Source: Pedobacter chitinilyticus (lineage in GTDB: Bacteria > Bacteroidota > Bacteroidia > Sphingobacteriales > Sphingobacteriaceae). From it: a stretch of 64,000 nucleotides of DNA. A model generated the notes under the pieces. The model did not search any database and was not told the origin of the DNA. It worked only from the letters and a program-made list of their open reading frames with translations. A program made the position numbers and the translations under genes. Location: the NCBI RefSeq assembly GCF_003313385.1, contig NZ_QMHN01000001.1, positions 1,476,097 to 1,540,096 on the forward strand, in the 5' to 3' direction. Shown here in pieces: positions 3,593-38,622 of this stretch. Within the stretch, counting starts at the first letter, position 1. Each line of letters starts with the position of its first letter.

Positions 3593-4003
3593 TTACTGTT
3601 TGATGTATTTTGTGCCATTTGCAGAAAAGGACTTTTTATCATCGTCCATCACGATAGTAACGCTGCCGTCTTCCTTACGGTAGTTACTTTCGGGCATGTG
3701 TATGTAGTTTTTACCTTTCCAAATGTTTCTTTCATTGTACTTGATGTTTCTAAACTTAAAGGCTACTTTGGCAGCATGCTGTGGCCAACCACTGCTGCCC
3801 ACGGCCATTACCAGGGCATCGCTACCTTCTGCAAAGGTTTGGGTTCCGCTAATCCTTATCACCATTCCATCGCTTCTTTTCCAGTCGCCATCCAAGTCGC
3901 CAGCCCGAAATGTCTGTGCATGAACTTTATCTATTCCAAGTATCAACACGAAAAAGAACAAAGTAGCTAGCCATTTCCCTTTATTTTGTATTGCTCTATT
4001 CAT
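3593..4003 (-). CDS. Exported hypothetical protein, first gene of the run
   Basis: A 136-residue protein with a signal peptide (LATLFFFVLILGI, cleavage after VHAQ). The mature part is predicted all-beta (DGDWKRSDGMVIRISG, later VTIVMDDDKKSFSANGT), resembling a small lipocalin-like or beta-sandwich fold of the kind that starts with a G.W motif. That resemblance is inference. It is the promoter-proximal gene of the eight-gene minus-strand run and follows a 306-bp gap. Confidence 0.6.
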   Translation of the reverse strand: MNRAIQNKGKWLATLFFFVLILGIDKVHAQTFRAGDLDGDWKRSDGMVIRISGTQTFAEGSDALVMAVGSSGWPQHAAKVAFKFRNIKYNERNIWKGKNYIHMPESNYRKEDGSVTIVMDDDKKSFSANGTKYIKQ

Positions 4004-4309
4004 AATAAATCCTTTACAGTCAAAATTATTAGAATATCAAGGAGCATGCAATCACTAATAATAGGTATTTTTCTTGCTGCTATAGGGATGCAATACGGCG
4101 CCAAAAGCTTCCATGCGACATCTTTTCGTTCCTGTTCAAATTAATCACTTAAATCGCTCGTTATTGGCTTTTTTAGTACGAAATTGACCATTTATAGTGA
4201 TCTATCGTTCTTAGATCATAAGTTTTGAGAGGTTTGGCTATGCTGCAAAAAAAGTAACAATTGGGTTAACTAGTACCTGATCTTATCCTGATTTTTAATA
4301 CGGAAGCAC
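4004..4309. promoter_or_regulatory. Gap upstream of the exported-protein run
   Basis: About 300 bp between the PAS-LuxR gene and the first exported-protein gene, both on the minus strand. It is AT-rich and presumably carries the promoter of the eight-gene run. I see no convincing terminator hairpin, repeat or small ORF, and I could not place a promoter with confidence. Confidence 0.35.
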
Positions 4310-7653: not shown

Positions 7654-7852
7654 TAAACCATCAATGCACCAAACCATGGCCCTTAACGCCATCGATTGGC
7701 CATTTCACACCTATTAATCCTAGTTTTTCCTGTTTTCACCCAGTATTGCCCAATGTTGCCCAGTTTTGGCACTTATTCGCCAAGCATAAAATATCCTTGC
7801 TTAAATTGCCCTCAATCTGAAAAATGGATTTCAGGGAAAAAACATTTATTTT

Positions 7853-8880: not shown

Positions 8881-9942
8881 ATGGATGCAAGGTCAAACAT
8901 CTCGCTTTATTGGAAATGCCAGTTCATTGGTTGGTCATGCGCTGCCTTGTATTGGAGCTACACTGGCTATACTGGAGGGCACTTTAACTGGGGCTTGGGT
9001 GTTTTACAGTTTGTTACCGATGTTGCCCTTTATATCGCCATTACCCATCTTTACAGGAATTTTGCCTTGACCAATGGATGGGTGAAACTGCCCCTAAATG
9101 CCTTATTTAAGAGATTGATCCTAGCGGTTGCCGTACTGGGCCTTGCCTACACCCTCACCACCGTGGGTAAGATTTGGCTTTTCAGGACTATTTTTTCATT
9201 TGGAAGACCTGTTTCATTTCATCTTTTCATCAACGAGAATGGGCTCAATATTTTCATGGCAGGAATTAGGCTCATGTCCATTTGGTTACTTGCCTACCAC
9301 CTGTATCATTATGCCCTTAGGGAAATTAATATTGCCAAAGAAAACGCAAAGCTTCTGTTACTTCAAAAAGATGCCCGCATTAGCCATTTATCGGCACAAC
9401 TTCATCCGCACTTTCTATTCAATGCCCTCAACACCATCAAATCGTTAGTGGTGGATAACCCAACTAATGCCAAAAGAGGCATTGATTTACTTTCAGACCT
9501 CTTAAGATCTGGTCTTTACAATGGTGAAGAAGACATGGTCCCGCTACAGGCCGAGCTCAACCTGGTGGCTGATTACCTAGAGCTGGAAAAATATCGTTTT
9601 GAAGAGCGTTTGGAATACCATATCCACATCAAAAAAGGGGTTCATCAACTCGAAACTTTAACCGTCCCAAGGTTATCCATCCAAACATTGGTTGAAAATG
9701 CGGTGAAACATGGGATCAGCAGCTTAAAAGCTGGCGGAACCATTACTTTAACGGTGTCCCCCTACAAAGAAGGCCTGATGATCCAGGTGTCAAATCCAGG
9801 AACCATTATTCAACAGGATGCGCCAGCAGGCATTGGCCTAAAAAACCTTAACGAACGTCTTGCGATCCGTTATCAAAAAAATGCGAGTTTTAGTTTAACC
9901 GAAGAAGATTCAAAAGTAACCGCCACCTTAATGCTTCCATGA
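8881..9942 (+). CDS. LytS-type sensor histidine kinase
   Basis: A 353-residue membrane kinase. Four hydrophobic segments lie within residues 15-145. They are followed by a short coiled linker and the His_kinase (PF06580) motif HLSAQLHPHFLFNALNTIKS with phosphoacceptor His175, then an HATPase domain (LVENAVKHG, GIGLKNLNERL). It has no extracellular domain of size, so it probably senses membrane or intramembrane cues. The stop overlaps the response-regulator start by 4 bp (ATGA), so the two are translationally coupled. The signal is unknown. Confidence 0.92.
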   Translation: MDARSNISLYWKCQFIGWSCAALYWSYTGYTGGHFNWGLGVLQFVTDVALYIAITHLYRNFALTNGWVKLPLNALFKRLILAVAVLGLAYTLTTVGKIWLFRTIFSFGRPVSFHLFINENGLNIFMAGIRLMSIWLLAYHLYHYALREINIAKENAKLLLLQKDARISHLSAQLHPHFLFNALNTIKSLVVDNPTNAKRGIDLLSDLLRSGLYNGEEDMVPLQAELNLVADYLELEKYRFEERLEYHIHIKKGVHQLETLTVPRLSIQTLVENAVKHGISSLKAGGTITLTVSPYKEGLMIQVSNPGTIIQQDAPAGIGLKNLNERLAIRYQKNASFSLTEEDSKVTATLMLP

Positions 9943-28657: not shown

Positions 28658-29797
28658 TTAATAAAAGGTTAAAATGCCCTTTTCTAGTTTACTATGGATG
28701 CCTGATGTGAGCTGTAAATTAGAAAGTACCACTTCTAAGGACTGGCTTTTGTCTATCTCGCCAGTAAACATTTGCTTGCTGATTTCTGCTGATTTCCAAT
28801 CAATTTTCACATCGTACCAGCGTACCAAAACTTGCGCAATTTCTGCTAGGGGCTTACGGTGAAAGTAGTAAGTTCCGCTACGCCATGAAAGTAGTTCTGG
28901 ATCGAAACTCCTGATCTCGAGCCCGCCAGATTTAGAAAACACCTCTTGACCTGGTTGCAAGGGAACTTGTTTATTTTCCTTAATGGCAGAAACAGCGCCT
29001 TCTACCAACGAGGCCGAAAAAGCTTCATTTTCATAGGCACTTACATTAAACGAGGTGCCATGAACCTGAATGTCGGCATAATTGGTATGTACCACAAAAG
29101 GTACTTTCGTGTTTTTGGCAACTTCAAAATAGGCTTCGCCTGTTAGGTATACTTCACGTTTTGAAGGATCGAAACGAAATGGAAAACGCAGGCTTGATGT
29201 TGCATTCAGCCACACGGTGGTGCCATCGTCAAGTTTTACCTTATAGTCTTTTGTAGGAGGAACCACCAATGTTGCCCATTGTAGGGGCTTACTGGCATCG
29301 CTGGCATAGCTTAGCTCTTTAGATTGGTTGTTGATGGCTGCACCCGCTACTTCAAATCTTCTGTCTGAAGAGAGATCAAGTGTTTGCCCATCGTCTGTTT
29401 TTAGGTATACCTGATGGAGAGGTGTAGATAACGTTGCGGTACTACGACTACGAAGCATCCAAAAGCCAATAAATATGATGGCCAATACTGCCGCTGCAGA
29501 AGTTACATAGCGCCAAATAGGCACCTTTTTAGGCTTAACTTGGGGCTGACTTTCCAATTTTTCGTCGATACGATTCCATGCCTCCTGCTCATCTAAACGA
29601 TTTAGAAAATTAGTAGCACGGGAAGAGCTTTGGAATTGATTAAGAATACTTTCCCAATAGGCCAAGGCCATGGGCGAATCCAACATCGCTTTATTCACGA
29701 TTAATTCGTCCTCCTTGCTAATGGTTCCAGCTAGCTTTTCTACCAACAGTGCTTTAATATATTCGTCGTTATACTCCATCTCCTTATTCAGATGCAT
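28658..29797 (-). CDS. FecR-family anti-sigma factor
   Basis: A 379-residue anti-sigma factor. The cytoplasmic sigma-binding part is residues 1-94 and one transmembrane helix covers about 95-115. The periplasmic FecR domain contains VKLDDGTTVWLNATSSLRFP and GEAYFEVAKNTKVPFVVHT. The C-terminal DUF4974-like region (about 310-379) has the REVYL/YYFHRKPLAEI pattern common in SusC-linked FecR proteins. It starts 22 bp after the sigma-gene stop and precedes susC by 75 bp, so ligand binding at SusC should release the sigma factor. Confidence 0.93.
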   Translation of the reverse strand: MHLNKEMEYNDEYIKALLVEKLAGTISKEDELIVNKAMLDSPMALAYWESILNQFQSSSRATNFLNRLDEQEAWNRIDEKLESQPQVKPKKVPIWRYVTSAAAVLAIIFIGFWMLRSRSTATLSTPLHQVYLKTDDGQTLDLSSDRRFEVAGAAINNQSKELSYASDASKPLQWATLVVPPTKDYKVKLDDGTTVWLNATSSLRFPFRFDPSKREVYLTGEAYFEVAKNTKVPFVVHTNYADIQVHGTSFNVSAYENEAFSASLVEGAVSAIKENKQVPLQPGQEVFSKSGGLEIRSFDPELLSWRSGTYYFHRKPLAEIAQVLVRWYDVKIDWKSAEISKQMFTGEIDKSQSLEVVLSNLQLTSGIHSKLEKGILTFY

Positions 29798-29819: not shown

Positions 29820-30365
29820 TTATTTTAAATTTGTTAGTTTTTTCTGCAATACTTTTACTGCTAATTTGAGATGTGTCTTCACCGAATTGATTGAAACACC
29901 CATTTCATCTGCCGCCTCCTGATACTTTTTATTGTCTATATGCACCAATTTAAAAGCTTTTTGGCGCTGCATAGAAAGTTCATTGAAAATCATCTGGATA
30001 TGTTGTTCACGCAGTTCATGGTTAACCACTCCATGCTCAAGTTCCTCTGTTTCGTATGCTAACGATTGTGTGTACACATTTAACTGCTGTTGCTGGCTCT
30101 TGCGCTTACGCAGTAGCATGAGGCATTGATTGTGAACGGCACGAAATAAATAGGACTTAAGAGATGACTTTACAGACTGGTAATGATTTTTTTGCCACAT
30201 CTCTACAAAAAGGTTCTGTACCAGATCTTCAGCTTCCATCTCATCATCCAGAATGAGGAAAGCTTTAAGCGCAAGGGCACGATAGTATTTTTTGAATACA
30301 AGCTCATGGGCTGCTTTATGCCCAGATTGAAGTTCTTCAAGTAATATTTGGTCCTCTTCCTGCAT
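29820..30365 (-). CDS. ECF sigma-70 factor (Bacteroidota expansion family)
   Basis: A 181-residue ECF sigma factor with region 2 (HELVFKKYYRALALKAFLIL, EAEDLVQNLFVEMWQK, LKSYLFRAVHNQCLMLLRKR) and region 4 (AFKLVHIDNKKYQEAADEMG, VSINSVKTHLKLAVKVL). It is the first gene of the sigma/FecR/SusC/SusD/oxidoreductase locus and its likely activator. About 350 bp separate it from the divergent esterase gene. Confidence 0.94.
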   Translation of the reverse strand: MQEEDQILLEELQSGHKAAHELVFKKYYRALALKAFLILDDEMEAEDLVQNLFVEMWQKNHYQSVKSSLKSYLFRAVHNQCLMLLRKRKSQQQQLNVYTQSLAYETEELEHGVVNHELREQHIQMIFNELSMQRQKAFKLVHIDNKKYQEAADEMGVSINSVKTHLKLAVKVLQKKLTNLK

Positions 30366-32017: not shown

Positions 32018-32719
32018 CTATACACTTACGCCAAAAAGATAACCTACAAAAGCAGAAAGCCCCATAGCAATGGTTCCCCAAATAGCTATCCGCAACACTG
32101 CCTTAACAGGACTAGATCCCCCAGTTTTTGCCGCAGTAATGCCTAAAATCATCAGGAAAACAATGGTAAAGCCGTATAACCAATATTCCATTCCTTTTAC
32201 TGGGGCAAAAAAAATGACAAGAAGCGGTAGCAGTCCTCCTACCGTAAAAGCGGTTCCAGAAGCCAGTGCGGCCTGTATGGGATGGGCCTGACTGATCTCA
32301 TTAATGCCCAGTTCATCTCTTACATGGGTACCAAGAGCATCTGCTTCGGTGAGCTCCAAAGCAACTTGCCTAGCTGTTTCCTTTTTTAACCCCCTTCGTT
32401 CGTAAATTTGCGATAGCAAGTCCAGTTCTTGTTCAGGCATTTCTTTCAGTTCCTTTGTTTCTCGCTCAATATCGCCCTTTTCAATATCGGTCTGTGAACT
32501 TACCGAAACATATTCGCCAGCAGACATTGATAATGCCCCAGCCACAAGCCCTGCCACCGTTGCAAGCATAATGGGCTCCTTGGTGGTACTGGCAGCTGCA
32601 ACACCAATAGCAAGACTTGAAATAGAGATAATGCCATCATTGGCACCTAAAACCGCCGCACGTAACCAGTTGCTTCGGTGGATGTAATGATTATCCAAAT
32701 AATTTTCTATCGTCAACAT
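32018..32719 (-). CDS. VIT/CCC1-family metal transporter
   Basis: A 233-residue membrane protein of the VIT1/CCC1 iron-manganese transporter family. The first helix block is WLRAAVLGANDGIISISSLA and the second GLVAGALSMSAGEYVSVSSQ, both diagnostic. A charged cytoplasmic helical region with Glu-rich metal-binding potential follows (SQTDIEKGDIERETKEL, then EQELDLLSQIYERRG). Three more helices complete the protein. It lies 55 bp after the histidine-kinase stop on the same strand, so it may be the last gene of the redox/two-component operon. It probably moves Fe(II) or Mn(II) out of the cytosol. Confidence 0.9.
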   Translation of the reverse strand: MLTIENYLDNHYIHRSNWLRAAVLGANDGIISISSLAIGVAAASTTKEPIMLATVAGLVAGALSMSAGEYVSVSSQTDIEKGDIERETKELKEMPEQELDLLSQIYERRGLKKETARQVALELTEADALGTHVRDELGINEISQAHPIQAALASGTAFTVGGLLPLLVIFFAPVKGMEYWLYGFTIVFLMILGITAAKTGGSSPVKAVLRIAIWGTIAMGLSAFVGYLFGVSV

Positions 32720-32774
32720 AATGAACTGGATTTAAGTTAATATTCTTTAATTTTTTATTGGATGATCGAGGTTC

Positions 32775-34025
32775 CTAAAAAATCACCGTGAAAACGTGTA
32801 CATCATCATGATATGAATAGGAAATACTGAAACCGTGAAGTTCAACAATTTGCTTTACAATGGTTAGGCCAAGTCCCATGCCTTCAGATGCGGGCGATTT
32901 GTAAAACCTTTCAAAGGCAACGGTTTCATCCAGAGCACCCGCTTCGCTGGTATTGGTTACCGATAACCGCTCTGGGCTGAGTTCAACTTGTATGTGCCCG
33001 CCCTTATAGTTGTGCCTGATGCTGTTGCCAATTAGATTATCTAATAAAATGTCTGCCAGATATCTGCTCATTAACACTTCCTTTTCCTGTAAATTGGCGT
33101 TGACAACAATACTTTTCCTTTGCGTAAACTCCTGGAAATACTGTATTTTTTCTTCCAGCATTTGCTTTAAGTTCACTTGTTCCCTATCTAGCAGTAGATT
33201 ATTATCGATTTTGACCAACAGCAAAAGCGATTGGTTCAGTTTGGTCAATTTTGCCGTTGCCCTGTATAGGTCGACAAGGTTTCTGCTGTGCTCTTCGCTC
33301 AGCTCGGTAGACTGTAGCATCATATCCAATTTAGAGTTGATCACCGCAATTGGCGTCATCATCTCATGAGAGGCATTTTCCGTAAACATCCTGATTTCTC
33401 GGTAATCCGATTTTACCCGCTGTGAGATATCCACGATCGCATCATTTAATTCCCTAAATTCAACAATGGAAGTGCTTACCTGCTCAAAGCCTTGTTCTTT
33501 GTTTACGTTAAAAGACTTAAGGTTTAACAATAATTGATTAAATGGTACCCAAATCCTTTTCATCATATAGCGGTTCACGGCCCATAGTATTACCAGTAAT
33601 CCCAATACTGGAAGGATGATCACCAAGAAGATACTTTTGGCTTGATCCATATGGGCTATTTTGGAAGCAATAATCCTAATACTGTAGTTCTGCCCCGCCA
33701 TAACCAGATCCTCTTCTAGGTACCTACCCGTTTCCTTTACTCCCTTTTTGGGATTGAAGAAAATAGTATCCCCAAAATGTCTTTTTTTTGATATCCTAGA
33801 GATTTTATGATACGCTATCACCAAATCTTCAAATTCCGAATGCGGTGGAAAATCCTGCCTTTTAGAAGTATAATCTCTTACTTCCAGCAGCTCTTCTACC
33901 AAGTAATTATCAATCTGCTTGTTTAGATAGGTGCTCAGGGTATTGTAAAACAAGTAACCGATGATAAGAAGCCCAGCCATACTTGTAATGAGCAGCACAC
34001 GGTTATATAGGGTAAATAACCTCAT
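32775..34025 (-). CDS. Sensor histidine kinase (HisKA/HATPase)
   Basis: A 416-residue inner-membrane kinase with two transmembrane helices (about 8-28 and 131-150) and a periplasmic sensor of about 100 residues. The HisKA box is ENASHEMMTPIAVI with phosphoacceptor His220; the HATPase has DNLIGNSIRHN and GMGLGLTIVKQ. There is no HAMP domain with a strong match. It overlaps the response-regulator stop by 4 bp (ATGA). By position it should respond to the state of the ApbE/DUF4266/DUF3570 redox module or to its substrate (inference). Confidence 0.93.
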   Translation of the reverse strand: MRLFTLYNRVLLITSMAGLLIIGYLFYNTLSTYLNKQIDNYLVEELLEVRDYTSKRQDFPPHSEFEDLVIAYHKISRISKKRHFGDTIFFNPKKGVKETGRYLEEDLVMAGQNYSIRIIASKIAHMDQAKSIFLVIILPVLGLLVILWAVNRYMMKRIWVPFNQLLLNLKSFNVNKEQGFEQVSTSIVEFRELNDAIVDISQRVKSDYREIRMFTENASHEMMTPIAVINSKLDMMLQSTELSEEHSRNLVDLYRATAKLTKLNQSLLLLVKIDNNLLLDREQVNLKQMLEEKIQYFQEFTQRKSIVVNANLQEKEVLMSRYLADILLDNLIGNSIRHNYKGGHIQVELSPERLSVTNTSEAGALDETVAFERFYKSPASEGMGLGLTIVKQIVELHGFSISYSYHDDVHVFTVIF

Positions 34026-34699
34026 TCGGCGCTAAATTTATAACCTACGCCATAAACAGACTGAAAATAATCTTTACAGCCAGCATCAACCAGTTTTTTA
34101 CGCAGATTTTTGATATGGGTATAAATGAAGTCAAAGCTGTCGGCCATATCTGCATGGTCGCCCCATATATGGGCCACCAAAGCAGATTTGGATATCACCT
34201 TAGATTTATTGGCCATAAAGTATAACAGCAGGTCATACTCTTTGCGGGTAAGGCTTATTGGCTCGCCATGCACCTTCACCGTTTTGCTTTGGATATCAAT
34301 GTTCAATTCGTTAAACCTAACCAAGTCGTTCCCTTTAAAAGATCTTCTTCTTACTATTGCTAGCACCCTGGCACTGAGCTCGGAAAGATGAAAGGGTTTG
34401 ATCAGATAGTCGTCGGCACCCAAGCCCAGCCCCTCAATCCGTTGGTCTACCGATCCGCGGGCAGTAATGATGATGATTCCATCGTCTCTATCCTGTTTTT
34501 TTAAGATCCGCATTAATTTCAGTCCATCGCCATCGGGCAAGGTAAGGTCCAACAAAATGCAATCGTAATCGTATAGGGCTATTTTTTCGGTAGCCTCATC
34601 AAGGCTAGCTGCGAGATCGCATACATTGCCCTCAGCTTTCAGGTAATCAGCGATATTGTCCCTCAATAGTTGCTCATCCTCCACGACTAAAATCTTCAT
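34022..34699 (-). CDS. OmpR-family response regulator
   Basis: A 225-residue regulator with a receiver domain (VVEDE pocket, phospho-acceptor Asp51 in CILLDLTLP, Lys in LIKPF) and a C-terminal winged helix (about 130-225: ISLTRKEYDLLLYFMANK, FIYTHIKNLRKKL, VYGVGYKF). It is paired with the overlapping kinase gene. It lies 31 bp downstream of the DUF3570 gene, so it is probably autoregulated within the same operon. Confidence 0.94.
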   Translation of the reverse strand: MKILVVEDEQLLRDNIADYLKAEGNVCDLAASLDEATEKIALYDYDCILLDLTLPDGDGLKLMRILKKQDRDDGIIIITARGSVDQRIEGLGLGADDYLIKPFHLSELSARVLAIVRRRSFKGNDLVRFNELNIDIQSKTVKVHGEPISLTRKEYDLLLYFMANKSKVISKSALVAHIWGDHADMADSFDFIYTHIKNLRKKLVDAGCKDYFQSVYGVGYKFSAE

Positions 34700-34730
34700 A
34701 AACCCACTGTCATTAACATCAACAATTTAG

Positions 34731-35927
34731 CTATTTATATTTGATATTCAAGGAAATTATATCGGAGCTCATCTGGATATTTTTGCTGTAATGGCCATAC
34801 CGCACTTCCAGCATGCTCAACCGTTGCAGTCCCAATATTCCCTTTGGAGGCGCAAAGCGGATGCCTGCCCCGTAAAAATTACTATTGAATTTTGACAGGT
34901 CATAATTGCTGTTGTAATATTGGTCGGCAATGGTGTGGCTTTGATAGGGTGCAAAATATTTGGCAGCCGTTTGTGTGTAGTAACGGTAAAATGGACTGAT
35001 CGAAAAAAAAGCATTTATTTTCACGGGCAACTCCATTTCGGCGGTATGGGCATTAATGCCCCAATTGTCGGTATAGAAACGATAGTAAGTTCTTATTACC
35101 ACGTTATCACCTAGGAAATAGCTAGCCCTTAGCCCCAAGGGAATCTTAAAGCGGTTATTGGGCAGATTTTCCTGATGCACGCTGCCATCTTTAAAATATA
35201 CCCTGTGAAATGGCAAGCTAAGGTAGCCCGTTTGCTGTACTACATCGGCCAGAAGCATTACCTGAAAACGCTGATTGATGACCTGGGCATAAGATAGGGA
35301 ACCTGCAAAGGTATTTCTACCTGCAGTTCCACCCGTTTCGTGCTCACCTCCGCTACTTCTTAGTTCAATGGGCAGAATGAGCTTAACTTGATCCAAATAC
35401 GTTTGGAATTTAGCGGTAAACTCCCCATTTCTATCTTTGGTTTTAGTAGAAAAAGCAATATTACCGCCAAATGATTGGTAGTCATATTCCGTAGAGGAAG
35501 AAAGACCCAGTGCTAATGTGGTTCCCTTTTTTTCATTTTCCACACTCCAACTCAGTGAGGGATAGACACGAGTATCGGCATGTGAAGCGGATGAGTTTGC
35601 CTGTAAATCGATTTTATCAGAAGAAGCAGAGCTATAGTGATCTATGCCTACATCCAAACCAAAAGTGTGTTTACGTTCTTTTAAATCGTATTTGGTAAGT
35701 CTTATATCAAAAATATTAGCAATATCGCTAAGTTTTTGTGAGCCTATCCCCCCTGTTACCGCCGCATTATTTCCGTCTTGGCTATAGTAGCTGGATACGA
35801 GGTTGACCTCATCCAGTTTCAGCTTACGACTTTTATAGCCAGTGCTCTCTTGTCTTTGGGCAATTTGTCCGAAAGTTGGGTGCAACAGCGCAAAAGCCGT
35901 TGCCATAGTTAAAAATATCTTTTTCAT
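34731..35927 (-). CDS. DUF3570 outer-membrane protein
   Basis: A 398-residue protein with a signal peptide (LTMATAFALLHPTFGQ). The mature chain is predicted to be a beta barrel: alternating aromatic strands such as FGLDVGIDHYSSASSD, YRFYTDNWGINAHT and the C-terminal strand SLNIKYK. It matches the DUF3570 pattern, whose members are linked to ApbE, thioredoxin and DUF4266 genes. The likely location is the outer membrane; function is not established. It lies 24 bp after the DUF4266 gene and ahead of the two-component pair. Confidence 0.85.
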   Translation of the reverse strand: MKKIFLTMATAFALLHPTFGQIAQRQESTGYKSRKLKLDEVNLVSSYYSQDGNNAAVTGGIGSQKLSDIANIFDIRLTKYDLKERKHTFGLDVGIDHYSSASSDKIDLQANSSASHADTRVYPSLSWSVENEKKGTTLALGLSSSTEYDYQSFGGNIAFSTKTKDRNGEFTAKFQTYLDQVKLILPIELRSSGGEHETGGTAGRNTFAGSLSYAQVINQRFQVMLLADVVQQTGYLSLPFHRVYFKDGSVHQENLPNNRFKIPLGLRASYFLGDNVVIRTYYRFYTDNWGINAHTAEMELPVKINAFFSISPFYRYYTQTAAKYFAPYQSHTIADQYYNSNYDLSKFNSNFYGAGIRFAPPKGILGLQRLSMLEVRYGHYSKNIQMSSDIISLNIKYK

Positions 35928-35951
35928 GCGCTACAAATAATGATATGATTT

Positions 35952-36182
35952 TCAATTACAGCCGCAACCGCCACCGCTCTTTCCAGCGTTGGCACCTGAT
36001 GCGCCTTCCCTATAGCCCTGAAAACTTAGCTCGGTTTTCTCTACCTTTCGATTGGAAAGAGCCATTTCGGCATCGTTTAACCTATTTTTTTGGTACTCCT
36101 TAACGGTAGTACAGGATGCTGTGGCTAACGCCACCATACATACCAAGATGCTGGGCAAACCTATTTTTTTTGATATTTTCAT
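35952..36182 (-). CDS. DUF4266 small Gly/Cys-tailed lipoprotein
   Basis: A 76-residue protein. The lipoprotein signal places the modified cysteine at Cys24 (ATASC), giving a mature chain of about 53 residues. A helical segment (KEYQKNRLNDAEMALSNRK) is followed by FQGYREGASGANAGKSGGG and the terminal CGCN. This is the DUF4266 pattern. The GASGAN segment resembles the ApbE flavinylation motif but has Asn where the acceptor Thr or Ser would be. The tail CGC could bind metal or exchange thiols with the neighbouring thioredoxin. It overlaps the ApbE stop by 4 bp, so the two are tightly coupled. Too short for most gene finders, but well supported by signal, overlap and family. Confidence 0.85.
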   Translation of the reverse strand: MKISKKIGLPSILVCMVALATASCTTVKEYQKNRLNDAEMALSNRKVEKTELSFQGYREGASGANAGKSGGGCGCN

Positions 36183-37132
36183 CTGAGATTTATGTTGTTA
36201 CTGGTGAAAACCTGATCGTAGTCATCTATGATGATACATGCTAAATGGCGAATCTGATTGATCATATCTAGTCCCGCCTTGATTCCCATAATGGTAACGG
36301 GCGTGGCCATGGCATCGGCAATTTCGGCGTTTGGCCCGATGATGCTTACACTTTTAATGCCTCTTACTGGCAGGCCCGTTTTGGGATTGATGGTATGCGA
36401 ATATTTCACGCCATTGATGATGACATATTTTTCGTAATTGCCCGAAGTAGCTACGGCCATATCGTTAACATTTAGGTAGGAAAAAGGCATTTGTCGGTGT
36501 GCTGGATTAACTATGCCGATGGTCCATGGTTTCCCATTGTGCTGGGTACCCCAGGTGGTGAGGTCACCCGATGCGTTCACAATTCCACCTTCAACACCTT
36601 CTCTTTTTAACAAGGCCTTTGCCATTTCGGCGGCATATCCCTTTCCTATTGCACCAAAACCTATCCGCATGCCCACTTTGCTTAGTTTTACGGTACAGGC
36701 TTGTGCATCTAAGATGATGTTCTTGTAATTGATTAAACCTACCATTGATTTAGCCAGCTCCGCATTGGGCAATGCCTTCATCTCTCGATCAAAATTCCAA
36801 AGCCTTTTATCAATCGAACCGTAGCTAATGTCAAACGCACCATCGGTAATTCTAGATATCCTTAGGGAACGTTCAATGAGGCTAAACACTTCGGGATCGA
36901 CCTTTACTGCAGCAATACCTGCCTTTTGGTTAATCTGGTTGGTTTGGCTTTGTTCGTTAAAGGTGGTCAACAATCTTTCTATCCGCCTTATTTCTTCAAC
37001 AGCCATTTCCAGTTTGGCATCAGCCCAAAGTTGATCATGGCCTACCACCGTAATTTCAAAAGTGTTCCCCATCAATCTTTCGGTACGCTTGAAAGATTGT
37101 AAAACCATATTGGGGCTATTTACGACCATCAC
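36179..37132 (-). CDS. apbE: FAD:protein FMN transferase (ApbE)
   Basis: A 317-residue ApbE-type enzyme, which attaches FMN from FAD to Thr or Ser of exported proteins. Motifs seen: MGNTFEITV near the start, GFGAIGKGYAAE (158-169), NASGD (186-190), SGNYEKY (230-236), HTINPKTGLP (246-255) and the metal-binding ADAMAT (272-277). No N-terminal signal peptide is visible, unusual because ApbE normally acts outside the cytosol. The start is uncertain: 37132 overlaps the thioredoxin stop by 17 bp, while Met9 (37108) would avoid overlap. It sits between the thioredoxin and DUF4266 genes. Confidence 0.92.
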   Translation of the reverse strand: MMVVNSPNMVLQSFKRTERLMGNTFEITVVGHDQLWADAKLEMAVEEIRRIERLLTTFNEQSQTNQINQKAGIAAVKVDPEVFSLIERSLRISRITDGAFDISYGSIDKRLWNFDREMKALPNAELAKSMVGLINYKNIILDAQACTVKLSKVGMRIGFGAIGKGYAAEMAKALLKREGVEGGIVNASGDLTTWGTQHNGKPWTIGIVNPAHRQMPFSYLNVNDMAVATSGNYEKYVIINGVKYSHTINPKTGLPVRGIKSVSIIGPNAEIADAMATPVTIMGIKAGLDMINQIRHLACIIIDDYDQVFTSNNINLR

Positions 37133-37556
37133 ATATTTGTTTAACAGTAGCTGTAAACTGTGCAGGTGTTTCTTCTGGCATTCCCTCCCAAGTTTTCAGT
37201 ACTTTGCCTTCTGCATCAAGCAGTAAGGTATAAGGGAATCTTCCACCTGGATTGTAGGTTTCGGCCAAAGCCTCGTTCTGCTTTTTCAGATCGCTAGCCA
37301 GCTGATTTTTTTTGTTGCGTGGAAAATCTGCATTAACCAACACCAAATTTTGTTCGGCCATCTTTAAAAATTCCGCATCGTTAAATATTTCCTTGTGCAT
37401 TCTGATACAGGGACCGCACCAATCCGATCCTGAAAAATTAAGTAGGATAAGATGGTTTTTCTCTTTGGCTATTTTTTTGGCATTTTCGAATTTAGGCTCC
37501 CAATTTCCTGCATTTAGTCCGAAAAAAAGGATCGTTATCAATAAAAAGGTCTTCAT
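37116..37556 (-). CDS. Exported thioredoxin-like protein
   Basis: A 146-residue protein with a short signal peptide (FLLITILFFGLNAG) and a thioredoxin fold. The active site is SGSDWCGPC, and the cis-Pro loop is GRFPYTLLLD. It resembles periplasmic DUF255/thioredoxin_7-type proteins, which reduce disulfides or thiols outside the cytosol. A natural partner is the Cys-tailed DUF4266 lipoprotein two genes downstream (inference). It lies 42 bp after the cytochrome gene. Confidence 0.9.
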   Translation of the reverse strand: MKTFLLITILFFGLNAGNWEPKFENAKKIAKEKNHLILLNFSGSDWCGPCIRMHKEIFNDAEFLKMAEQNLVLVNADFPRNKKNQLASDLKKQNEALAETYNPGGRFPYTLLLDAEGKVLKTWEGMPEETPAQFTATVKQICDGRK

Positions 37557-37598
37557 ATTTAAAGCTTTATAATTTTTATATTTGAGGGTAGATGAACA

Positions 37599-38234
37599 TT
37601 AGTCCTCTGCCCTTCCACCGTTGATCATATCTGAAACAATTCCCCGCTTATTCCCTCTTTCGGCAATGATAACACCTACGATATGCACCACGATAAATAG
37701 CAGGATGGCATACATGACAGTTTCATGGGCCTCCTTAAGACCATGGGCCATGGAGTTGGATAACCCAATTTGGCTATGGAATTTTATTCCAAGTCCACTA
37801 ACTGCCATGAACAACAGCATTACATAAAAAAGCAGGTACGATAGTTTGATGATTGGATCTTTAATTCCTATCTGTCCATTTCGCTGCCCCAACATTCGAA
37901 GCTCTTTTTTAAGTTTATAGAATAGGTGCTGTTTTTTTGCAAGCATCAATTCCCCTAACAACCTGTAAATAAGCAGGGCAATTAGAAAATAACCGACATA
38001 AACATGTACATTCCAGACCATTTCCGACAGACCATGCGAAACTTCCCCAAGTTGTTGTTCGCTTACTTTCGCTCCTGCATCTTTAAGTTGTCCGCTCAGC
38101 CAGATTGCATTTGTTTTCCTGTCGAGCAAAGTTGAATTAATAAGTATGGTCAACAGAGAACCGCTAATCACCATAGCATTTAACCAGTGCCATAGTCGTA
38201 AATTCGCCGTATATCTTTTAAGTTTATTTTCCAT
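37599..38234 (-). CDS. Cytochrome b561-like membrane protein
   Basis: A 211-residue membrane protein with four transmembrane segments. Heme-ligand candidates are His16 (RLWHWLN), His77 (NVHVYVG), His170 (KEAHE) and His184 (VVHIVG), the arrangement of the prokaryotic cytochrome b561/Ni-Fe hydrogenase b-subunit group. It would carry electrons from the quinone pool across the inner membrane to periplasmic acceptors. It is the first gene of the minus-strand redox operon and so plausibly feeds the thioredoxin/ApbE/DUF4266 components. Confidence 0.88.
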   Translation of the reverse strand: MENKLKRYTANLRLWHWLNAMVISGSLLTILINSTLLDRKTNAIWLSGQLKDAGAKVSEQQLGEVSHGLSEMVWNVHVYVGYFLIALLIYRLLGELMLAKKQHLFYKLKKELRMLGQRNGQIGIKDPIIKLSYLLFYVMLLFMAVSGLGIKFHSQIGLSNSMAHGLKEAHETVMYAILLFIVVHIVGVIIAERGNKRGIVSDMINGGRAED

Positions 38235-38622
38235 CCTCTACCTTTTATCGGTTTTTCAATGCCAAACTAGAACTGAAATCTGAAGATATTCTGAAGACGA
38301 CTATTAATGGAGCTGCTAACATTTTGCTACAAAAATTCAAAGCGCTTTCCGAAGGGAACCTTTTGTCTTACTTACACTAGATAAAAACTATTGTTAATCA
38401 AGAATCATATAGAAAATAACCGCCTTCAAGACTAGATCATATTATTAGGTTATCATTATTACGAACTTCAGCAAAGATGCCATTTAAAAACATCAGAGCC
38501 TATTTATCACTAATAAATAGAAATTTAATTTGTCTTTTTAAAGTATTATTTTATTTATTTAACAAAACATTCTGTATTTCAATAAATTATAACTATACTT
38601 GTACTTTATTAAAAGAAATATA
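38235..38622. promoter_or_regulatory. Divergent promoter gap, long AT-rich leader of cold-shock gene
   Basis: About 388 bp between the divergent redox operon and the cold-shock gene. It is strongly AT-rich toward the cold-shock gene. A TATACTTG at 38594-38601 resembles the Bacteroidota -7 element TANNTTTG with one mismatch and would give a short leader; this is tentative. No repeat was seen. Confidence 0.4.

Follow-up and report, generated by a model that had tools for sequence, protein, structure and literature searches.

A candidate extracytosolic electron-transfer operon in Pedobacter chitinilyticus, with a flavin transferase, a cytochrome b561 and a two-component system

A 64,000-nucleotide stretch of the Pedobacter chitinilyticus genome (contig NZ_QMHN01000001.1, positions 1,476,097 to 1,540,096, hereafter the window) carries eight minus-strand genes at 32018-38234, with intergenic gaps of at most 55 bp. 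Their products include an ApbE flavin transferase and members of the DUF4266 and DUF3570 families. The original prediction took the eight genes for an envelope redox module with its own two-component system and a metal transporter. The eight open reading frames, their strand, their spacing and the families assigned to them are all borne out by the coordinates and by Pfam matches. The source assembly (G000) is 5.05 Mb in size and 99.93% complete. The features, all on the minus strand, are as follows.

38279..38296, minus strand: direct-repeat box CTTCAGAATATCTTCAGA; the b561 start codon lies 44 bp downstream
37599..38234, minus strand: cytochrome b561-type membrane protein, 211 residues (PF01292, 94.5 bits), proposed quinol-linked electron entry
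37116..37556, minus strand: thioredoxin-like protein, periplasmic, with WCGPC motif and signal peptide (PF13899; N-terminal hydrophobic segment)
36179..37132, minus strand: ApbE flavin transferase, GTG start, predicted cytosolic (PF02424, 263 bits)
35952..36182, minus strand: DUF4266 lipoprotein with C-terminal GGGCGCN (PF14086, 66.5 bits)
34731..35927, minus strand: DUF3570 outer-membrane barrel, proposed to be flavinylated (PF12094, 104 bits)
34022..34699, minus strand: OmpR/PhoB-type response regulator, PmrA/BasR-like (PF00072 and PF00486)
32775..34025, minus strand: sensor histidine kinase (PF00512 and PF02518; NCBIfam PorY subfamily; placed in a tree)
32018..32719, minus strand: VIT-family metal transporter (PF01988, 226 bits)

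The b561 gene is separated by 42 bp from the thioredoxin gene, which overlaps apbE by 17 bp; apbE and the DUF4266 gene overlap by 4 bp. Spacers of 24 bp and 31 bp follow, before the DUF3570 and regulator genes respectively, then a 4-bp overlap of regulator and kinase and 55 bp between kinase and VIT. A simple terminator scan of the minus strand gave no terminator-like site from b561 to the kinase, and both minus-strand matches fall within VIT. The Bacteroidota-type promoter pattern TTTG-N17-23-TAnnTTTG has four matches in the window, with 4.8 expected, and none near the operon; a sigma-70 scan gave 16 sites against 18.7 in shuffled sequence. In Pedobacter helvus (L137) the gene order is identical, and its DUF3570 protein is 84% identical to that of the window.

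The thioredoxin, ApbE, DUF4266 and DUF3570 genes constitute a core that is already described in the parts of PMC8238504 (Méheust et al. 2021) available to us, so the idea that this core might be new does not stand. There, clusters with DsbD typically contain ApbE, DUF3570 (227 of 285), a PF13899 thioredoxin (183) and DUF4266 (221), and 316 further clusters combine the same four proteins in the absence of DsbD. A Chlorobium DUF3570 protein was shown in E. coli to be flavinylated at two motifs, and VIT1, present in 25 clusters, led those authors to raise iron assimilation as a possible role. Within the open-licence PMC literature DUF4266 and DUF3570 are described in PMC8238504 only, and nothing was found on flavinylation with DsbD and Bacteroid, or on ApbE with outer membrane and Bacteroidota. 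The window operon shares with these clusters the ApbE, the DUF3570 barrel, the PF13899 thioredoxin, the DUF4266 protein with its C-terminal CXC and the VIT1-type gene. It is unlike them, as far as the available parts of PMC8238504 go, in having a cytochrome b561 alongside (and, in relatives, a Rieske protein too), an ApbE that lacks a signal peptide and SSAS in place of SGAS; of a two-component pair or a DNA box nothing was seen in those parts. No DsbD gene (PF02683) occurs in the operon, the genome's only one over the cut-off being on another contig (G000:C5). A search of the genome for FMN_bind (PF04205) substrates gave no match at E 0.001, which sets the operon apart from the NQR, RNF and Nos types of ApbE system.

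The gene content of related loci was surveyed within 10 kb of DUF4266 genes, at score thresholds of our choosing. DUF4266 is present in 83 of 296 sampled genomes of the phylum. Because the loci were selected through their DUF4266 or DUF3570 genes, all shares are conditional on those. By family we mean the window's Sphingobacteriaceae-type family (f1), an inferred assignment; the labels Chlorobi-type, Flavobacteriaceae-type and, for some genomes, Pedobacter likewise derive from gene content or named relatives. Some gene losses are contig ends (L107, for example), the b561 counts include distant matches (one of 12 in the family, L099, and two of the five among named organisms, L190 and L193), genome searches scored part of the first-look candidates, and all p-values ignore shared descent. 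Among 26 family loci there are DUF3570 in 26, thioredoxin in 25, ApbE in 25 and a Rieske protein in 15; the kinase occurs in 13, a regulator with kinase in 12, b561 in 12, VIT in five and DsbD, within 10 kb of the core, in none. Thirty loci of other Bacteroidia include b561 in none, regulator with kinase in six and VIT in seven. At the thresholds used, b561, regulator with kinase and VIT are all absent from 20 Chlorobi-type loci, 15 of which have DsbD, and 80 loci of named organisms give VIT 27 times, regulator with kinase six times and b561 five times.

The eight genes do not form a single conserved unit. The original prediction had treated them as a single system and proposed this kind of neighbourhood survey; most sampled core loci stand without the cytochrome, the kinase or VIT, and what holds across the survey is the four-gene core. 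The cytochrome, kinase and VIT genes are lineage-specific additions rather than core parts, with the qualification that the first two do track the core within the family.

For the cytochrome this is seen across 101 genomes of the family: 15 of the 26 with DUF4266 and one of the 75 without encode a b561 homologue scoring 140 bits or more, the next lower score being 61 (Fisher p = 4e-10, with the cut-off set after the scores were seen). Eleven of the 15 have b561 and DUF4266 no more than 10 kb apart, in varying order; the remaining four have them on separate contigs. Four conserved histidines ligate the two hemes b of prokaryotic cytochrome b561 (PF01292), and the window protein has all four: His16 and His77 are present in 23 of 24 aligned homologues (one gap), His170 and His184 in all 24. 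One new feature of this variant is a four-histidine b561 in the place of DsbD, often accompanied in relatives by a Rieske protein. The latter (PF00355) precedes the thioredoxin gene in many relatives and is absent from the window locus; in Chryseobacterium a heme-binding protein (PF14376) is encoded slightly upstream of the thioredoxin.

The DUF4266 lipoprotein ends in the heptapeptide GGGCGCN in 153 of 161 sequences and in a terminal CXC in 160 of them. This tail varies far less than a mere linker would require, and we propose for it the role of a dithiol arm linking thioredoxin to flavin. A structural model (pLDDT 58, the predicted local distance difference test, with an unstructured tail) is little informative. 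That DUF4266 might itself be flavinylated, at an SGAN sequence in the tail, was considered and found to be unsupported, as the Chlorobi-type sequences shown carry SGGS or SGGA.

An AlphaFold2 model of DUF3570 (pLDDT 82) is a barrel with 16 main strands. The even strand number, with short turns on one side and long loops on the other, is porin-like, and comparison with OmpF, OmpC, OmpT, OprO and others gives VIA Z scores of about 17 to 20. A search with the sequence profile gave no solved relative, and template-modelling scores in Foldseek are mostly 0.35 to 0.48, indicating just a barrel. The two putative flavin motifs, SSAS at positions 99-102 and again at 112-115, map to the loop that links strand 3 to strand 4, where pLDDT falls below 50 (residues 102-114). 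Because both ends of a 16-strand barrel are expected to be periplasmic, this loop probably faces outward. Among close relatives the first site is [T/S]SAS in 43 of 43 sequences and the second [S/T][S/G]AS in 43 of 43. In the same 43 sequences the outer loops are better conserved than the inner turns (0.77 and 0.69 respectively, p = 0.02), a bias repeated in two other alignments (p = 0.004 to 0.006) and in the outer halves of the strands (p = 0.0005 to 0.006). Ordinary porins generally display the opposite pattern. Three Chlorobi-type loci (L080, L090 and L091) each have a second DUF3570 gene.

On which side of the membrane would the flavin be attached? In the window ApbE about 20 residues precede the domain; they include no hydrophobic stretch, and there is no in-frame start codon further upstream. 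By our own hydrophobicity rule, used in place of SignalP, none of the 25 family and none of the 17 Chlorobi-type ApbEs beside DUF4266 has a signal peptide; among named loci 71 of 74 lack one, the other three being outside the rule's call. In other Bacteroidia 15 are without and 13 with a signal peptide (two outside the call); a small remaining group has two with and one outside. The N-terminus of DUF3570 is hydrophobic in all 26 family loci. Because ApbE lacks a signal peptide and DUF3570 has this hydrophobic N-terminus, the flavin, if it is attached to DUF3570, is most likely attached before export. In the available parts of PMC12052999 a cytosolic ApbE is known from Klebsiella, serving a soluble fumarate reductase. 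The usual picture is of flavinylation after export, and it would be extended by an ApbE that works in the cytosol on a barrel destined for export. The earlier statement that ApbE attaches flavin mononucleotide (FMN) to exported proteins thus keeps its ApbE-dependent part and needs care as to place.

Six Flavobacteriaceae-type loci (L044, L047, L050, L057, L065 and L068) encode an ApbE with a signal peptide, in the order thioredoxin, ApbE, DUF4266, DUF3570, followed by a regulator, a kinase and an RND set, and from these sequences ApbE appears to work on both membrane sides in related operons. The window genome has two further ApbE genes, at L001 and L003, with partners that differ from those in the window; the L001 protein scores as signal peptide-bearing and that of L003 has, by reading, a hydrophobic N-terminus. 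Translations place one of the two near a flavodoxin/reductase-like protein, and the other, with a C-terminal extension, beside a PepSY-like protein.

The claim that the module has its own two-component system withstands scrutiny, on the distribution of the kinase and on a common upstream box. Kinases scoring at least 360 bits to that of the window (next lower 328, with the cut set after the scores were seen) occur in 10 of the 101 family genomes, and nine of these have DUF4266 within 10 kb. The tenth, G364 (L122, G364:C95, about 9056-9235), gives no DUF4266 match anywhere in the genome; next to its regulator is a DUF3570 fragment of 60 residues, as if the module had decayed in this genome. In a tree the kinases of at least 360 bits, with that of L122, form one fully supported clade (100/100). 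A clade B of five kinases has four near the module and the fifth beside b561 and VIT. A group C of 14, which the tree does not resolve into one branch, has an RND gene nearby in 10 cases and PAP2 (at least 200 bits) in eight. An initial assignment of the kinase to copper efflux (a Cus system) was dropped in that form: the RND protein of L123, the one scanned from the group C loci, scores 489.6 bits against a CusA/CzcA cut-off of 701, and the Flavobacteriaceae-type kinases that do lie beside CusA/CzcA-family pumps have another sensor region and fall in another clade.

The regulator finds BasR/PmrA among its best PDB matches, after DrrD. In the available parts of PMC3973317 the PmrA box consists of two 6-bp half-sites, head to tail and 5 bp apart. 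The window box has this 6-N5-6 geometry with the half-site CTTCAG. Common to this system and PmrAB (BasRS) are an OmpR-type regulator with PmrA as its best model, a head-to-tail 6-N5-6 box and the genes that follow such a box, one for a transferase-like protein of the alkaline phosphatase superfamily and, in relatives, one for a PAP2 phosphatase. Unlike PmrAB, the regulator scores below the cut-off, the half-site is CTTCAG rather than CTTAAG/NTTAAT and a redox module is among the targets. The likeness lies in design; membership by score fails.

The box consensus, CTTCAGAATNTCTTCAGA, is a head-to-tail direct repeat, CTTCAG-N5-CTTCAG. It was built after inspection of the upstream regions of 12 loci, eight of them among the 26 family loci. 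That first look was weak alone, the best word being present in eight of 12 regions against a maximum of seven in 30 shuffles. The window contains a single copy of the shorter pattern CTTCA-N6-CTTCA, upstream of b561 at 38281-38296; 0.14 copies would be expected, and 13 of 100 shuffles have at least one. Of 74 upstream regions taken from family loci, 16 contain the pattern, with a maximum of one for eight permuted patterns; it is found upstream of regulator, Rieske/thioredoxin and b561 units. At up to two mismatches CTTCAGAATNTCTTCAGA is present at 11 of 26 family core loci, and of 20 shuffled versions 19 gave none and one gave a single locus. Loci with the kinase have the box in 10 of 13 cases and those without in one of 13 (26 loci, p = 0.001); with four loci left out the association has p = 0.007.

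Genomes new to the analysis give a similar picture. In 119 genomes of the genus, at no more than one mismatch, there are 90 matches to the box and six to the reversed pattern. Twenty matches are exact, six of them in genomes already used and one (L327) identical to L216. Regions were fetched for 40 of the 90 (14 exact, 26 with one mismatch); with the duplicates L327 and L331 (the latter the same as L137) set aside, 13 exact and 25 single-mismatch regions are new. All 13 exact matches lie upstream of module or sulfatase genes: Rieske in six, thioredoxin in two (at 206 and 369 bp), b561 in two and sulfatase in three. Two of the three sulfatase genes stand directly before the thioredoxin of the module, and in two of the three cases (L323 and L329) the box overlaps the assumed start codon. 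Among the 26 one-mismatch regions, 19 are upstream of module, sulfatase or regulator genes and seven inside unrelated genes. In 21 family genomes six of seven exact matches are upstream of module genes and the seventh (G312) is upstream of a module-adjacent PAP2 gene; at up to two mismatches the count is 89 against 14 for the reversed pattern. In the window genome the operon box is the only exact match of the consensus.

A second site in that genome, with two mismatches, lies at L271 (G000:C8:138716-146733, box 4001-4018), about 37 bp upstream of the assumed start of a gene for a sulfatase-superfamily membrane protein, which has box-bearing homologues in many genomes. The sulfatase is distantly LtaS/OpgB-like and the PAP2 protein distantly LpxE-like, all below cut-offs; the closest solved relative of the sulfatase is an uncharacterised protein. 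By its positions the box would tie the regulator to the module, and we infer that this regulator binds it.

Metals are suggested by what adjoins the core. Genes of the CusA/CzcA RND family lie within 10 kb of 12 of the 30 core loci of other Bacteroidia, with 0.42 expected (68 copies in 26 genomes); six of the 12 have one arrangement and hence are not independent. In the family RND genes are near at least four of 26 core loci. VIT genes, as counted above, are near seven of 30 and five of 26. The RND genes, VIT and the PmrAB-like switch point to metals, of no particular kind, and the module may load or reduce them.

Taken together, we consider the operon to be a Sphingobacteriaceae variant of the DUF3570/DUF4266 module that carries out extracytosolic electron transfer and is switched by an envelope or metal signal, a reading to which we assign a probability of about 0.5. 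That part of the original prediction which saw ApbE-dependent electron transfer outside the cytosol, with an outer-membrane barrel, is supported by homology and by the model. Menaquinol would be oxidized by the inner-membrane b561, joined in relatives by a Rieske protein, and the electrons would pass to the periplasmic thioredoxin and the CGC-tailed DUF4266 lipoprotein. The next carriers would be the one or two FMNs that the DUF3570 barrel bears on an outer loop, and through these the barrel would reduce an acceptor located at the outer membrane or outside it. The FMN would be attached by ApbE in the cytosol, before export of DUF3570. Kinase and regulator would switch the operon on via the box at 38279-38296, together with the LtaS/OpgB-like sulfatase elsewhere in the genome, in a response resembling that of PmrAB and triggered by a signal from the envelope or from metals. 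VIT might then handle resulting or excess Fe(II)/Mn(II). We favour ferric iron as acceptor, signal or both; in the available parts of PMC2919465 a PmrA-dependent promoter of Klebsiella is induced by ferric iron. The direction of the electrons, a single chain of all carriers, the outward flavin loop, iron and the binding of the box by the regulator are presumptive steps of this scheme.

A more detailed version, in which FMN is added in the cytosol, the modified protein is exported and inserted as a 16-strand barrel with its flavins on the outer side, the near-invariant CGC tail enters the barrel from the periplasm and charges those flavins with quinol electrons by way of b561, Rieske protein and thioredoxin, and PmrAB-like induction by ferric iron or cationic stress joins surface modification and surface metal reduction in one regulon, is doubtful as a whole. 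What is new in the setting of this known module is another electron entry, a probable dedicated switch with its DNA signal, a flavin transferase lacking a signal peptide and flavin sites that probably face outward, these two last features being predictions. Multiheme outer-membrane electron conduits are porin-cytochrome systems, and the idea of electrons passing through a barrel to the cell surface is common to both. The window operon has no multiheme cytochrome; by analogy, flavins and a CGC-tailed lipoprotein would replace it.

A number of observations weigh against this interpretation. All eight genes stand together in five of 26 family core loci (the window, L034, L035, L098 and L108). Because 11 of the 26 genomes with DUF4266 lack this b561, the cytochrome is dispensable or replaceable; the genome's DsbD elsewhere could also reduce the thioredoxin. 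At L116 (G359:C2), in a genome with no DUF4266 match, b561 stands alone with a box at 7663-7678 overlapping its assumed start, and the cytochrome may have a role outside the module. In the barrel, the window motifs have S for G at both sites when set against the [S/T]GA[S/T] tested in Chlorobium, a substitution general among close relatives of the window protein, and in a wider alignment of 23 rows the first site keeps SAS throughout, with the second changed in L036, L102 and L107. For the regulator the best NCBIfam model is indeed PmrA (best of 87 families), at 177 bits against a cut-off of 330. The kinase scores 421.9 bits with the NCBIfam PorY subfamily (NF052314, cut-off 350), a name from type IX secretion. 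PorY-type kinases control type IX secretion through PorX. The window kinase is paired with an adjacent OmpR-type regulator, and we would not read the label as type IX secretion control here.

The box has its own difficulties. With all eight loci that were in view at motif discovery removed, it is present in three of five loci with the kinase against one of 13 without (p = 0.044). Three of 13 kinase loci lack it and one of 13 kinase-free loci has it. Most two-mismatch sites are chance: 16 of 18 fetched are inside genes, one lies between genes and one is upstream of a sulfatase, and at this threshold the window genome has two box sites (operon and sulfatase gene) against three for the reversed pattern. 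Single-mismatch boxes occur in other genera at L267 (8001-8018) and L270 (4001-4018). The genes downstream of these, as read from sequence, are long, exported and TonB-receptor or carboxypeptidase-regulatory-like, and are possible further targets. Nor does iron look singled out, as the neighbouring RND pumps look to be of divalent-cation type; those adjoining core loci carry a DFG..xDGA motif, which we take to be typical of such pumps.

What else might the module do? Thioredoxin and the DUF4266 CGC could keep envelope disulfides or metal-binding thiols reduced under envelope or metal stress, with the flavin barrel as a side branch or electron sink. Almost every core locus has the thioredoxin and the CXC, 15 of 20 Chlorobi-type loci have DsbD within 10 kb and metal efflux genes are close by in other Bacteroidia, all of which agree with thiol repair; the near-constant ApbE and barrel with two conserved flavin motifs would be left unexplained, as would the higher conservation of DUF3570 on its presumed outer side, and we think this alternative unlikely. 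Less likely again is a chain running in reverse, in which barrel flavins or DUF4266 oxidize a substrate such as reduced metal or thiols and b561 feeds menaquinone. Cytochrome b561 and flavins operate both ways. The available parts of PMC8238504 allow for reversal in principle, and those of PMC12052999 give one multi-FMN protein at -184 mV, termed relatively high; against this, relatives linked to DsbD are modelled as reductive in the former.

The regulon might instead mainly alter surface phosphates, through the sulfatase and PAP2, against cationic compounds, the redox module powering some modification and not the reduction of metal. In favour of this, many genomes have the box ahead of the sulfatase and some ahead of PAP2 (one such PAP2 gene adjoins the module), and sulfatase, DAGK or PAP2 genes occur within core loci; VIT and the metal RND genes point to metals instead, and we know of no modification enzyme in the operon that uses electrons. 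We regard such remodelling as improbable, to about the same degree as the reversed chain. That the two-component pair and VIT are independent genes which happen to stand beside a flavin operon is the least credible alternative, and a very small chance is all we would give it. Both are missing beside most sampled core loci and shift position among relatives, as mere neighbours would; the kinase clade, b561 and the box nevertheless accompany the module in the family, and the held-out box result extends this to genomes new to the analysis.

With a candidate regulator, a short DNA signal and a limited set of genes carrying it, the purpose of DUF3570 and DUF4266 becomes directly testable, and finding the inducer of the box-linked operon would reveal it.

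Downstream of the operon, names read from sequence suggest an ECF-sigma-like gene at 29820-30365 and a FecR-like gene at 28658-29797, followed by a large open reading frame.

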